Shown: positions 57,558 to 61,670 of the stretch, piece after piece
Layout: every line of letters starts with the position of its first letter
Numbering within the stretch: the stretch's first letter is position 1
Assembly: GCA_025963725.1 (NCBI GenBank)
Contig: JAOQAE010000002.1
Coordinates: 757,221-821,220, forward strand
DNA length: 64,000 bases
Direction of reading: 5' to 3'
From: Bacteroidota bacterium
GTDB taxonomy: Bacteria > Bacteroidota > Bacteroidia > 2-12-FULL-35-15
Notes under the pieces: model-generated
What the model was told of the DNA's origin: nothing
Database searches by the model: none
What the model saw: only the letters and a program-made list of their open reading frames with translations
Position numbers and translations under genes: made by a program

Positions 57558-57680
57558 AGCTGTAATTTGTGTATTCTATAAAATTAAGGAATTAATTCTA
57601 TGATTCATAATTTCGGATGCTTAAATTTAGACGAACCGAGCCAGAGCAAAGACCAACAGGGAAATAACCATCCCGCAGGG

Positions 57681-58430
57681 TCAGAGTGCGGCGCAAATAA
57701 ACAGGTTCCGGTATTCATCCGGCCCGGCGTTCTCATACGCGCAAAAAGCATCTTTATCCATACGCCGCATGCTGCCATTTTTTTCAATCATAAAAACACT
57801 AAAATTCTTCCCTGCAAAAAAATCGAAGAACTCAGCGACAGAAGCTCCGGAAGCCTTTATACCACAAGGGAAAAACTCCGAAAGAATCTTTACATCCGGA
57901 TTTCTGTGCAGCAGCTTCTGCATCCCCAGGAATGCGAAATATTCATATCCCTGTATATCGATCTTTATAAAGTCAATGTGTCCCTCGCACACATCATCAG
58001 CCGCAACGGCTCCTGTTTCAATGATCCCCGTGTGATCCTCCGCAGGATAAGTGCGGTGATCCACATTGAGCATATCTGAGCGGTACAGCGGAAGAATTCC
58101 TGTTGCATTGCTGACCGCCTTGTTATGAAGAGTTACATTGGGAAGATTCGCTGTGTTCTTCTGCAGATAGCTGAAATTAAGCGGATCCGGCTCAAAGGCA
58201 TGCACCCGCCCTGTGGCACCGGCCTGCGCCGAAAGAAATTTTGTATAAAAGCCGATGTTGGCGCCAATATCCAGCACGATGCTCCCGGGCTTCACATATT
58301 TCCTGATGAGGGAGATCTCTGCTTTGTCCTGCCGCCTTTTAAAAACAGGATACAGCATATTATAAACGGGGAATGCATGTTTGTACAGCAGGTCGCCGGC
58401 TTTTAATGAAAGCTGCAATGAGAGGCGCAT
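57681..58430 (-). CDS. FkbM-family methyltransferase
   Basis: A 249-residue SAM-dependent methyltransferase of the FkbM family with VLDIGANIGFYTKFLSAQ (motif I), VHAFEPDPLNFSYLQKN and the acidic FIKIDIQGYEYFAFLGMQKLL (motif with D and E). FkbM proteins methylate hydroxyl groups of sugars or polyketides. The start codon overlaps the stop of the upstream gene by one base, so it is the last gene of the second glycan cluster. The target is probably a glycan sugar. Confidence 0.9.
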   Translation of the reverse strand: MRLSLQLSLKAGDLLYKHAFPVYNMLYPVFKRRQDKAEISLIRKYVKPGSIVLDIGANIGFYTKFLSAQAGATGRVHAFEPDPLNFSYLQKNTANLPNVTLHNKAVSNATGILPLYRSDMLNVDHRTYPAEDHTGIIETGAVAADDVCEGHIDFIKIDIQGYEYFAFLGMQKLLHRNPDVKILSEFFPCGIKASGASVAEFFDFFAGKNFSVFMIEKNGSMRRMDKDAFCAYENAGPDEYRNLFICAAL

Positions 58431-59842
58431 CAGATAAATTTAATTTTTCTCGCAGCAAATATGCACATCCTGAACAGGACGAGCCCATGCCGGAACCTTG
58501 AAATATTAGTGCTGCCGTACAGCCGCCGCCTGTAATGGATGGGAAGCTCCACAATGCAGAGATTAAGCTTATGTGCCCCGAAAAGGAGATCAAAATCGCC
58601 AAAGGGATCAAAATCGCCAAAGAACCTGCGGTTGGCTGCCAGCCGCTGATAATCCTTCCGGAAGATCACCTTTGTGCCGCAGAGCGTATCCTTAAAACGC
58701 TGATCGAGCAAAAACGTAAAGGCCATGCTGAAAAATTTGTTCCCAGCGAGGTTGATGGTGCGCATTGCATGTTTATCCATCCGGTACACGAGCCTCGAGC
58801 CATTTACAAAATCTGCTTTCCCGGAGGCGATCACATCATAAAATTTCGGGAGGTCTTCCGGTGCCACGGTAAGGTCTGCATCGAGGATCATCAGGATGTC
58901 GCCGGTAGCCATACCGAAGCCTTTACGCACGGCGTTGTTCTTTCCGCGCTGCTGGACCTGGGCAACTTTTATATCATGTGTTGCAGCGTATTTTTTTTGC
59001 ACATCGAGAATGCGCGTCCATGTATCATCGGTTGAATTGCCTTCAATGAAAATGATCTCCGTATGCTTGCCCATTGCAGGAATCCGCGTTATCGCATTCT
59101 CGATGTTGCCGCTTTCATTGCGTGCAGGGATCACCACAGACACCGTATATTCCTTCGCCGCTTCTCCGCTTCGTACGGCGGCAGGGCGCGCAAAGGTGAA
59201 ATTATTGATGCAGAGCATCCTGATCAGCGGAAGCTTCGCGAGGATATTATTGAACAGCTCCGAAAGCAGTGGAATGTAAACAGGGAAGATCATCCTGCGC
59301 GTATTACGGTACACGCTGAAGCCTGACAGTTCGAGCAGCGCCGCGATCTCCGCAAGGCTCAGCCAATTCTGCGGCGGTGTTTTTGTTTTGTAGCCGATCA
59401 TCTCCCCGAATTTTAAAACCGGCTCCCAGAGAAAGCTATAATAGGTGATGATGATCTTGGTTTGCGAATGACAAACCTTGTGCAGCTGCTTTAACACTTC
59501 CTGGATATCGTCGAGATAGCCAATGAGGTTGGAGAGAATGATAAGATCGAACTTTTCATCGAAGCGGAGATCTTCCGCCTTCATCACATGCAATTCCAGA
59601 TCAGGGAACTGCTGCCTTGCTTCGCGGATCATGCCTTCGCTGAAATCGATCCCCACTTTGCGCCGGGCGTTAATATCGTTCAGCAGCTCTCCTGTGCCGC
59701 AGCCGATCTCGAGCACGGAACTATCTTCCTGGATAAAATATGCGCAATGTTTGGTGATATCATCCCAGTAATATCTTTTAGCCCTTCGCTGCTTAACGCG
59801 GCGGGGGGCGATATGATCGAAATATAAAGTCTTCGTATCCAA
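58430..59842 (-). CDS. Fusion of SAM methyltransferase and GT2 glycosyltransferase
   Basis: A 470-residue two-domain enzyme. Residues 1-220 are a class I methyltransferase with VLEIGCGTGELL (43-54), an NLIGYLDD segment and an HCHS-containing tail. Residues about 230-470 are a GT2 domain with VSVVIPARNESGNI, FIEGNSTDDTW, the metal motif DADL (321-324), and the acceptor region RRFFGDFDPFGDFDLLFGAHK with RERxxGxTNI-like RRRLYGSTNISRFRHG. The linkage suggests methylation of a sugar or lipid carrier in the same pathway. The next gene starts one base inside its stop. Confidence 0.88.
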   Translation of the reverse strand: MDTKTLYFDHIAPRRVKQRRAKRYYWDDITKHCAYFIQEDSSVLEIGCGTGELLNDINARRKVGIDFSEGMIREARQQFPDLELHVMKAEDLRFDEKFDLIILSNLIGYLDDIQEVLKQLHKVCHSQTKIIITYYSFLWEPVLKFGEMIGYKTKTPPQNWLSLAEIAALLELSGFSVYRNTRRMIFPVYIPLLSELFNNILAKLPLIRMLCINNFTFARPAAVRSGEAAKEYTVSVVIPARNESGNIENAITRIPAMGKHTEIIFIEGNSTDDTWTRILDVQKKYAATHDIKVAQVQQRGKNNAVRKGFGMATGDILMILDADLTVAPEDLPKFYDVIASGKADFVNGSRLVYRMDKHAMRTINLAGNKFFSMAFTFLLDQRFKDTLCGTKVIFRKDYQRLAANRRFFGDFDPFGDFDLLFGAHKLNLCIVELPIHYRRRLYGSTNISRFRHGLVLFRMCIFAARKIKFI

Positions 59843-59844
59843 GC

Positions 59845-61647
59845 TTACTGAGTTTGTTCGGTTTCCAATACAAACAAACGGAAAATTTCCTTTTGTGAGC
59901 TCTTTTCGGCGGTTGCAAATAACATGTTCGGGAATTCGGGGCTCACGGTAACATATTTCCCGGTGCCTACCGAGCGTAAGGAGATCCTGTTATCGCCTTC
60001 TTCGAGGTAGCTGATCTCAAACTGCTCCATCCTTCCCGGCGAAAGGGCATTCGCCATCAGCACGTAATCGTATTGGGGGCTGACGGACAAGAACCTGCCG
60101 TTAGCTGCTACAAGAGCAATTGTACCGGAGTTAAGGCGCTTCACGGTAAACAAAGAATAACCCGTTGATGATTTCGCGTAGGCAGCAACAGCATTCTGAG
60201 CCTTGGGGTTGATCGCTGCATATTGCAGGTTAAAGCCTCTTAATTCAACGGAATATTTATTGAAGCTGTTCTCGAAATATTCTTTTGAATACTCCACCTG
60301 CGGCAAGCCTTTGATCCTTCTTTCCCAGTTGTAAGGCTTGAGAAGATCCATCCATTCGATGCTTCGCCGCGTCTGGAAGAACCCTTTGAAATAAGCCTCG
60401 CGGGTCATATCATCAAAATGAATAAGGCCATTTTTATATTGCCAGGTCTGGAAAAGGTTCAGCGCAATGAGTAAAAAAAGAACGGTAGCAGTGATCCCTT
60501 TTATCAGCCTGCCCTTTGTCATGAAGAATGCAAGCCCGGCAGCCATTGGGATCGCCAGCAGGGAATAATAGTCGACCATCGGGCGGATGCCCCAGCTGAT
60601 GCCATAGCTCCATGCCCACCAGGACGACAGGATAAAAATGGTGAGCAGCAGCACGCTTAGCGTGGCAACCACGATTCCCCGCTGCATCCTGTAGAGCGCT
60701 ACGAGGCCGATGATGGCAAAGACCAGCACGGGTGTATAGATAAAAATTCCTTTGCGAAAGCTGAAGAGAAATAAAAAGATCGCAGGGCTGCTGAAAATAA
60801 AATGCTCATCGATGTACACATCGTAATACCAGTGGCCGCTGATGTATTTCCAATAAAGCGGCTGGATGCAAAGGAATGGCAGGAACACGGCGAGGGCAAT
60901 TGCGATGTTTTTCAAATTAGCGCGCAGGAAGCGGAGAAAAGCAGGAAAGCCCCCTTTTGAATAAATGCCCACGATCAGGAAATACAGCAGGATGGTGATA
61001 GCAAGCGGACGAATGAGCACCAGCATTCCGAACAAGGCGGAAAAGGCCAGCAGCGGTTTCAGGCGGGCATCGCGGAGCCAGCGGTCGAACATGTACATGC
61101 AGATGCATAACAGCGAGAAGGAGATCCCGTGCGACATGAATCCCTCGAAGGTGGAATACCAAAGAAGATTGGTACCCAATACAAGTGTGATCATCGTTAA
61201 TGCACTTATCCCTTCCGAAAAATGGGCCAGCAGCAATTTGCGCAGGTAGATCAATCCGAGGAGCAGGTACAGCAGCACGCCCAGGCTCATTGCATTCTGA
61301 TAAGGCATTGTATAACCGTTCTGCGGAATGTCCATCCAGCCGACCAGCACGTGTCCCGCCATAAAGAACGGCAACAGCGCAAGGCTTACTCCTGCCGGAC
61401 ATTTGATCAGCTTATTGCCGTTCTCAATTTTGTAATACCAGATCTTGTCCTTGTAAAAGTCGCGGTCCTTATCGATGAAATTCATCTTCAGGTCATGATG
61501 GATAAAAACAGCGGGGAGATAAGCGTAATAGCTCGGGGCGTCCACAATGATCCTGTTCTTCTTCCACACCTGAAAATAAAAAAAAGTGCTCAGGATAAAA
61601 GCGAAGATGAAGGCGATGGACCAGAGGCTGTATTGCTTGCTTTTCAT
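59845..61647 (-). CDS. Polytopic GT-C-like glycosyltransferase with fascin-like C-terminal domain
   Basis: A 600-residue protein with about ten membrane helices in residues 1-430. The first loop carries IIVDAPSYYAYLP (Asp and Tyr), which fits the GT-C superfamily that uses polyprenyl-phosphate sugars. After a linker, residues about 508-600 hold two tandem fascin-type repeats, IALVAANGRFLSVSPQ and ISLRSVGTGKYVTVSP, each followed by a LMANA or LFATA strand and an EIF-type end. Fascin-like domains bind glycans or actin-like filaments; here a glycan-binding or recognition role is likely. The combination is unusual. It starts two bases after the fused MTase-GT2 gene. Confidence 0.72.
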   Translation of the reverse strand: MKSKQYSLWSIAFIFAFILSTFFYFQVWKKNRIIVDAPSYYAYLPAVFIHHDLKMNFIDKDRDFYKDKIWYYKIENGNKLIKCPAGVSLALLPFFMAGHVLVGWMDIPQNGYTMPYQNAMSLGVLLYLLLGLIYLRKLLLAHFSEGISALTMITLVLGTNLLWYSTFEGFMSHGISFSLLCICMYMFDRWLRDARLKPLLAFSALFGMLVLIRPLAITILLYFLIVGIYSKGGFPAFLRFLRANLKNIAIALAVFLPFLCIQPLYWKYISGHWYYDVYIDEHFIFSSPAIFLFLFSFRKGIFIYTPVLVFAIIGLVALYRMQRGIVVATLSVLLLTIFILSSWWAWSYGISWGIRPMVDYYSLLAIPMAAGLAFFMTKGRLIKGITATVLFLLIALNLFQTWQYKNGLIHFDDMTREAYFKGFFQTRRSIEWMDLLKPYNWERRIKGLPQVEYSKEYFENSFNKYSVELRGFNLQYAAINPKAQNAVAAYAKSSTGYSLFTVKRLNSGTIALVAANGRFLSVSPQYDYVLMANALSPGRMEQFEISYLEEGDNRISLRSVGTGKYVTVSPEFPNMLFATAEKSSQKEIFRLFVLETEQTQ

Positions 61648-61670
61648 TACCGCGGAGGTATAATTCCTAT

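Follow-up and report, generated by a model that had tools for sequence, protein, structure and literature searches.

The window, as the whole analysed stretch of 64,000 nucleotides is called here, contained on its reverse strand (59,845-61,647) an open reading frame of 600 residues with an ATG start codon. As judged from the reading frame, Pfam, structure models and fold matches, the product is a putative GT-C-fold membrane glycosyltransferase with a C-terminal beta-trefoil of the fascin/CBM92 type. Next to it on the same strand were a methyltransferase-GT2 fusion of 470 residues (58,430-59,842) and an FkbM methyltransferase of 249 residues (57,681-58,430), both named in the preliminary description of this DNA and both borne out by Pfam.

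Membrane part and gene neighbourhood

The AlphaFold model of the whole protein, built on 11 orthologues, combined a helical portion with a tail rich in beta strands, and had a middling mean pLDDT (72.4) with values below 50 at residues 25-42, 275-300 and 343-356. The membrane part (residues 1-406; 60,430-61,647, reverse strand) had approximately 11 transmembrane helices by our own count on the model, close to the ten or so described earlier. It was aligned by VIA-align with ALG12 (9s6t; Z 21.9 over 338 residues), yeast OST (8agb; Z 20.3 over 339 residues), an archaeal oligosaccharyltransferase (Z 19.9), ArnT (5f15; Z 19.2 over 340 residues) and Pmt4 (9i5k; Z 17.7). AftD (6w98) gave Z 17.4, and PglB was also among the Foldseek matches. 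The membrane part as modelled has the multi-helix GT-C fold, in agreement with the earlier assignment to a GT-C-like membrane glycosyltransferase. No GT-C family of Pfam matched the protein up to E 1, and the nearest NCBIfam model, NF047440, scored 30 bits, below its cut-off of 200; no named GT-C family was assigned.

The first loop, previously called Asp/Tyr-rich, was long, and its Asp36, Tyr41 and Tyr43 were invariant in the alignment of 11 orthologues. Asp36 (61,540-61,542, reverse strand; 11/11), located in the first stretch with pLDDT below 50, is a candidate catalytic residue. It is the conserved acidic residue of the first extracytoplasmic loop that characterizes GT-C enzymes, with the extracytoplasmic side predicted, and knowledge of GT-C enzymes suggests a catalytic role for it. 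Because 11 helices were counted, the C-terminus would be periplasmic, provided that the N-terminus is inside. Hydropathy counts are crude, and although the five loops assigned to the cytoplasm had 2 to 4 Lys or Arg each, 11 were counted in the long first loop, which was placed in the periplasm; this number counts against that topology.

A full-length orthologue was found at no less than 47% identity in 10 of the 36 genomes of the genus (own genome included), and an eleventh had a contig-edge fragment with 56% identity over residues 3-200. A wider genome scan returned ten loci, nine of which looked identical to those of the genus (L026-L034 looked identical to L055-L063 in the alignment, and were omitted from counts); the tenth, L064, in a record named Cytophagales, had 38% identity. 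The tail was kept in all ten aligned orthologues, L064 included. Relatives with 37-41% identity in nine genomes were frames of 466-478 residues whose match ended at residue 426-450, and the tail was missing from them.

The order of genes was a 691-residue protein, the GT-C protein, the methyltransferase-GT2 fusion and a class IV aminotransferase (the last by Pfam) in nine of the ten loci, with the fusion adjoining the GT-C gene. The GT2 half resembled dolichol-phosphate mannose synthase and undecaprenyl-phosphate sugar transferases, among them the Und-P-Ara4FN transferase (best E 6.4e-16). Since this half is like polyprenyl-phosphate sugar synthases, the two genes likely form a pair of donor synthase and GT-C enzyme, and by sequence the fusion is the likely donor-making partner of the GT-C protein. 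Three-component systems of the donor-synthase plus GT-C type have been described (PMC11127046).

The FkbM gene had no match in the nine syntenic loci, and was located between a divergent stretch and a matching flank. Compared by blastn with the sibling locus L055, the GT-C/GT2 stretch (58,427-61,648) had 70.6% identity and the flanks 83.7-89.2%. In 250-base steps, identity remained at 85-91% as far as 61.75 kb, fell to 59-70% across most of the GT-C gene, reached up to 84% within the GT2 gene and returned to 88-92% between 57.5 and 56.5 kb. Four flanking genes had dS of 0.53-0.86, the methyltransferase-GT2 gene had dS of 1.54, and the GT-C gene was saturated (pS 0.74). Loci L056-L058 gave little information, as most of their flanking genes were near saturation. 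A probable exchanged cassette (57,600-61,650) is delimited by these comparisons, and the GT-C/GT2 stretch was probably replaced by a divergent allele; fast evolution in place is the alternative. Divergent-allele replacement is common for surface-glycan genes. The FkbM gene possibly arrived recently with the cassette.

Tail fold, family and occurrence on other proteins

The C-terminal beta-trefoil was delimited at residues 460-597 (59,857-60,270, reverse strand). Modelled alone (143 residues), the tail reached a pLDDT of 90.4 and had 12 strands arranged as three four-stranded repeats. The earlier expectation of a beta-trefoil was confirmed in this way, and its two tandem fascin units were ruled out: the two sequences on which they were based, NGRFLSVS and TGKYVTVS, were present, but the units were three in number and the first repeat, at about residues 466-504, had been missed. 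Pfam Fascin (PF06268) matched residues 482-590 (E 1.5e-5; 25.5 bits, with the cut-off at 23.1), and with its trefoil fold the tail belongs to that domain family, as had been anticipated. FRG1 and DUF7910 also matched, both under their cut-offs, whereas paralogous tails mostly scored better with DUF7910 or FRG1 than with Fascin.

Fascin was the top structural match of the tail (Z 21.7). It is a eukaryotic actin bundler of four trefoils; the window protein has the same fold in a single trefoil. Among single-domain carbohydrate-binding proteins the best match was the CBM92 of Chitinophaga pinensis (7zoh; Z 19.9, 24% identity), and the Z-scores of fascin and CBM92, being less than 2 apart, inform on fold and not on function. 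Other lectin-type trefoils matched structurally as well. The closest solved relative by sequence was the CBM92 7zoi, with a weak phmmer E of 0.0035, and identity to the solved CBM92s, two proteins only, was 24-26%, compared with an overall identity within the family stated as at least 37% (PMC11039641). The tail is a beta-trefoil related to the solved CBM92s, with which it has in common a single 12-stranded trefoil of fascin lineage at 24-25% identity and, in paralogous tails, the WExF motif (PMC11039641).

The window gene was not the only one with such a tail. A profile built on tails of the same genome detected eight copies there: the window gene's own, a single one on contig 4, and six within about 15 kb of contig 3. 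On contig 3 the tail was carried by four multi-helix membrane proteins, by an AlgX-domain protein (PF16822) whose gene immediately follows an MBOAT gene, and by a protein of 163 residues that begins like a lipoprotein. Of the four membrane proteins, two were homologous to the membrane part of the window protein, and the other two were read as GT-C folds from their helices and loops. In the genus, 22 of 36 genomes had the tail at E 1e-3 (the search labelled order covered the same 36), with clusters of three to five tail genes in G004, G007, G013 and G016; the genomes compared were mostly drafts or MAGs, and some tail genes were cut or frame-shifted. The parts before the tails formed eight groups without a blastp link at 1e-5, although remote homology among the GT-C-like groups is possible, and Pfam PMT_2 matched some of them. 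In seven further rows at most 150 residues preceded the tail; one of these rows is probably a membrane gene with a frameshift. In G480 and G608, a GT-C protein and an AlgX-like protein were both tailed, with an MBOAT-like frame (by reading) between them; AlgX was assigned by Pfam for L141 3477-5021 and L142 5073-6602, and by blastp for L142 8051-9610.

In a sample of the phylum, 8 of 395 genomes had the tail at E 1e-8, and in the other seven it was on secreted enzymes or CAP-type proteins by sequence reading, which suggested a fusion confined to the genus. This was overturned by a sample of the class, in which 38 of 395 genomes had the tail at E 1e-6, and 29 of the 38 lay outside the genus. 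Loci were read for 21 of these 29, over larger stretches in 15 of them: in 12 the tail followed five or more hydrophobic stretches, that is, it was on multi-helix proteins, and the remaining nine were five small proteins, three other proteins and one contig-edge fragment. A 22nd case, G119, already among the genomes of the phylum sample, had the tail on a GH5-like protein. A survey of homologues for this architecture had been proposed; the tail was present in the aligned orthologues and on multi-helix proteins elsewhere. In the open-licence PMC literature, no published account was found of a GT-C protein with a fascin/CBM92-type tail.

Sequence copying between tails

In G004, the tail of the GT-C protein and that of the AlgX-like protein were identical at 114 of 121 nucleotides, with an exact tract of 79, and their front parts had no homology to each other and had orthologues in G000 at 65% and 46% identity. 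Exact tracts were surveyed in 32 tails of eight genomes with a threshold of 25 nucleotides. They were found in 3 of the 60 same-genome pairs (79, 36 and 30 nucleotides) and in none of the 436 cross-genome pairs, of which the longest was 20; the median longest tract was 11 within and 10 between genomes. The 36-nucleotide pair (G480) consisted of a GT-C protein and a PMT_2-type protein, which blastp did not link, and the 30-nucleotide pair (G608) two AlgX-like proteins that are distant homologues, so that in two of the three pairs the front parts had no detectable homology. No pair with the window tail was among the 16 longest tracts listed. The exact tracts fit gene conversion in a minority of the pairs.

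For the trees and counts, two tails were cut back to the trefoil. Strict inheritance of the tail with its host gene was rejected for the GT-C tails of G000 and G004 (AU p 0.002) and for their AlgX-like tails (AU p 0.005). With more genomes, a single clade was rejected for seven GT-C tails (p 0.0003), a set that holds the long row G446, whose front part has only 98 residues and fits another subgroup, and likewise for four AlgX tails (p 0.0002). All these p-values are optimistic, because the groups were named after tail identities had been seen. Pairing of the GT-C and AlgX tails of G000 was neither supported nor rejected (p 0.43). On a 17-row tree with few supported branches, the tails of four genomes required 5 changes when labelled by genome and 4 when labelled by protein type. 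Type labels were clustered on that tree (7 changes compared with a mean of 9.2 after shuffling; 8 of 200 shuffles gave as few), and the AlgX label alone was not; on a 44-row tree many tails grouped by host type. From these sequence comparisons copying between tails is real but partial, and the clustering by type, about as good as that by genome, speaks against general homogenization. Copying would serve, we infer, to keep ligand specificity matched.

Sugar-site residues and proposed role of the tail

Each repeat of CBM92 has a WExF motif, whose Trp and Glu hold the sugar with the assistance of an Arg (PMC11039641). In the tail alignment, the corresponding slots of the window protein read YSLF (alpha; residues 497-500; 60,148-60,159), MEQF (beta; residues 540-543; 60,019-60,030) and KEIF (gamma; residues 586-589; 59,881-59,892), all on the reverse strand, and WExF was absent from all three repeats. 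Residues were counted in 44 aligned tails, 11 of the window orthogroup (L064 included) and 33 others; the latter all came from this genus and were not independent (some were 97% alike), and four had a gap at the first slot. The window orthogroup had no Trp in its 33 slots (0, 0 and 0 at the first, middle and third), kept Glu in 2, 10 and 9 of 11 rows, respectively, had Phe in the middle slot in 11/11 and an AQN loop in 9/11. Outside the orthogroup, Trp was present in 11, 30 and 10 of the 33 tails at the first, middle and third slots, in at least one slot in 32/33 and in at least two in 19/33. Arg, sought six residues before the motif, a position taken from CBM92 sequences, was found at the middle slot in 18/33 of these tails, and in the window orthogroup in 0/11 at the middle slot and 0/33 overall.

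By sequence, the WExF motif of CBM92 is present in the paralogous tails, and glycan reading by them is what the family would lead one to expect. The window tail, having neither the Trp nor the Arg at the position tested, has no standard CBM92 site, and for that reason glycan recognition, which the preliminary description attributed to it, would hold for the family and for paralogues that keep Trp, and is conjectural for the window tail, which has none of the three. A characterized carrageenan binder in CBM92 also has no WExF (PMC11039641). The window orthogroup lost the classical Trp sites, and most likely its tail was re-specialized to another ligand or contact.

We consider it moderately probable that the window protein is a periplasmic polyprenyl-phosphate-sugar transferase of surface-glycan assembly, with a re-specialized tail that reads the acceptor. 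An inner-membrane GT-C enzyme would take a sugar from a polyprenyl-phosphate donor, probably the product of the adjacent methyltransferase-GT2 fusion, and, on the periplasmic side, would attach it to a surface glycan. The C-terminal trefoil, of CBM type and fascin/CBM92 lineage, would grip the acceptor or product glycan in the periplasm near the active site; such an acceptor-holding role for the window tail itself is a guess by analogy. The same module is carried by other membrane proteins that resemble transferases, by an AlgX-like protein, presumably an O-acyltransferase, beside MBOAT, and by small lipoprotein-like proteins. As a module common to several surface-glycan enzymes, it would have these read the same or similar polymers.

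A tentative and less probable extension is that the tail is a shared glycan-reading tag of unrelated membrane enzymes, among them different GT-Cs and an AlgX-like acyltransferase, and of free lipoproteins, matched by gene conversion to the strain's own polymer, with the window tail as a Trp-free binder. If the tails of one genome are indeed kept alike and let different enzymes read one polymer, they would provide a rule, directly open to test, on how enzymes that modify glycans in the periplasm recognize their acceptor, and a marker grouping the enzymes of one surface glycan.

The tail might instead be a protein-protein dock or scaffold, comparable to fascin in its binding of actin, that joins the GT-C protein, the acyltransferase and the small tail proteins, and reads no glycan. 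The rank of fascin as top fold match (Z 21.7), the standalone trefoil proteins in the same clusters and the intact fold of a window tail whose sugar-binding Trp are gone are in line with such a dock; however, most paralogous tails kept the Trp-Glu pair of the middle site, 18/33 with Arg too, and a pure protein dock would not need that pair. The gap of less than 2 in Z between fascin and CBM92 concerns fold rather than function, and a dock is regarded as unlikely. It is similarly improbable that the tail of the window orthogroup is the remnant of a former CBM92-type module, a folded appendage that binds nothing: the 0/33 Trp and 0/33 Arg, the tail-less relatives and a dN higher in the tail (0.35-0.46) than in the membrane part (0.28-0.34) in four comparisons, a somewhat faster change that possibly reflects relaxed constraint, would agree with a remnant, but the ten aligned orthologues had the tail at full length even at 38% identity (L064), and Glu (10/11), Phe (11/11) and the AQN loop (9/11) were retained.

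For the reading preferred here, a GT-C transferase with an acceptor-reading tail, the closest comparisons are GT136 ORF12 of Citrobacter youngae and mycobacterial EmbA/B/C and AftD, which are likewise extracytoplasmic GT-C enzymes with a polyprenyl-linked donor and an added carbohydrate-binding domain (PMC11127046). In EmbA/B/C, AftD and ORF12 the extra domain binds the acceptor polysaccharide, and in EmbC, AftD and ORF12 it is a C-terminal CBM; that of ORF12 binds the unmodified polysaccharide and proved dispensable under the conditions examined (PMC11127046). The Citrobacter system has a donor synthase in the same locus, like the GT2 neighbour in the window (PMC11127046). The ORF12 module, according to the same source, is an immunoglobulin-like fold, whereas the window tail is a fascin/CBM92-type trefoil also present on other enzymes and small proteins.

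Protein O-mannosyltransferases combine a GT-C enzyme with a luminal beta-trefoil, MIR, that has carbohydrate-binding sites and affects processivity (PMC7759382). MIR belongs to a different trefoil family, and in these enzymes, whose acceptors are proteins, it sits between membrane helices. AlgX, an SGNH/AlgX protein of polysaccharide acetylation with a C-terminal CBM, is comparable to the AlgX-like proteins of the clusters (PMC4148444), which differ from AlgX as described there in that their C-terminal module is a trefoil shared with membrane proteins of the same locus. CBM92 proteins nearly always include a glycoside hydrolase or lyase (PMC11039641), whereas here the domain is on membrane proteins and the window tail has no WExF. 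The main text of that paper contained none of the terms glycosyltransferase, transferase, membrane, biosynthe- and lipoprotein. The CBM92 module, described on enzymes that degrade glycans, has relatives here on membrane proteins that probably build them.

Some further frames were observed near the tail genes or matched by the profiles. At L092 12390-14281, a multi-helix membrane frame and a tail frame overlapped, probably through a frameshift in the draft, and contig 1 of G600 (2259944-2272265) had four consecutive frames, 866-977 residues long, each matched once or twice by the tail profile. A second candidate module was a protein of about 180 residues that looks like a lipoprotein and was encoded close to the cluster in four genomes (L009 7892-8437; L094 4645-5211; L092 16400-16933; L095 3363-3911); its profile had two matches each in the large proteins L093 15156-17537 and L094 2353-4635, and also matched, weakly in part, some trefoil-free membrane proteins. 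A GH5 protein (Pfam) of about 490-500 residues without the tail was encoded within the tail cluster of contig 3 (L009 18149-19621), and similar GH5-like frames, recognized by similar starts, were near tailed proteins in L096, L097, L098, L142, L144 and L145. This recurrent untailed protein may serve to trim the same glycan.
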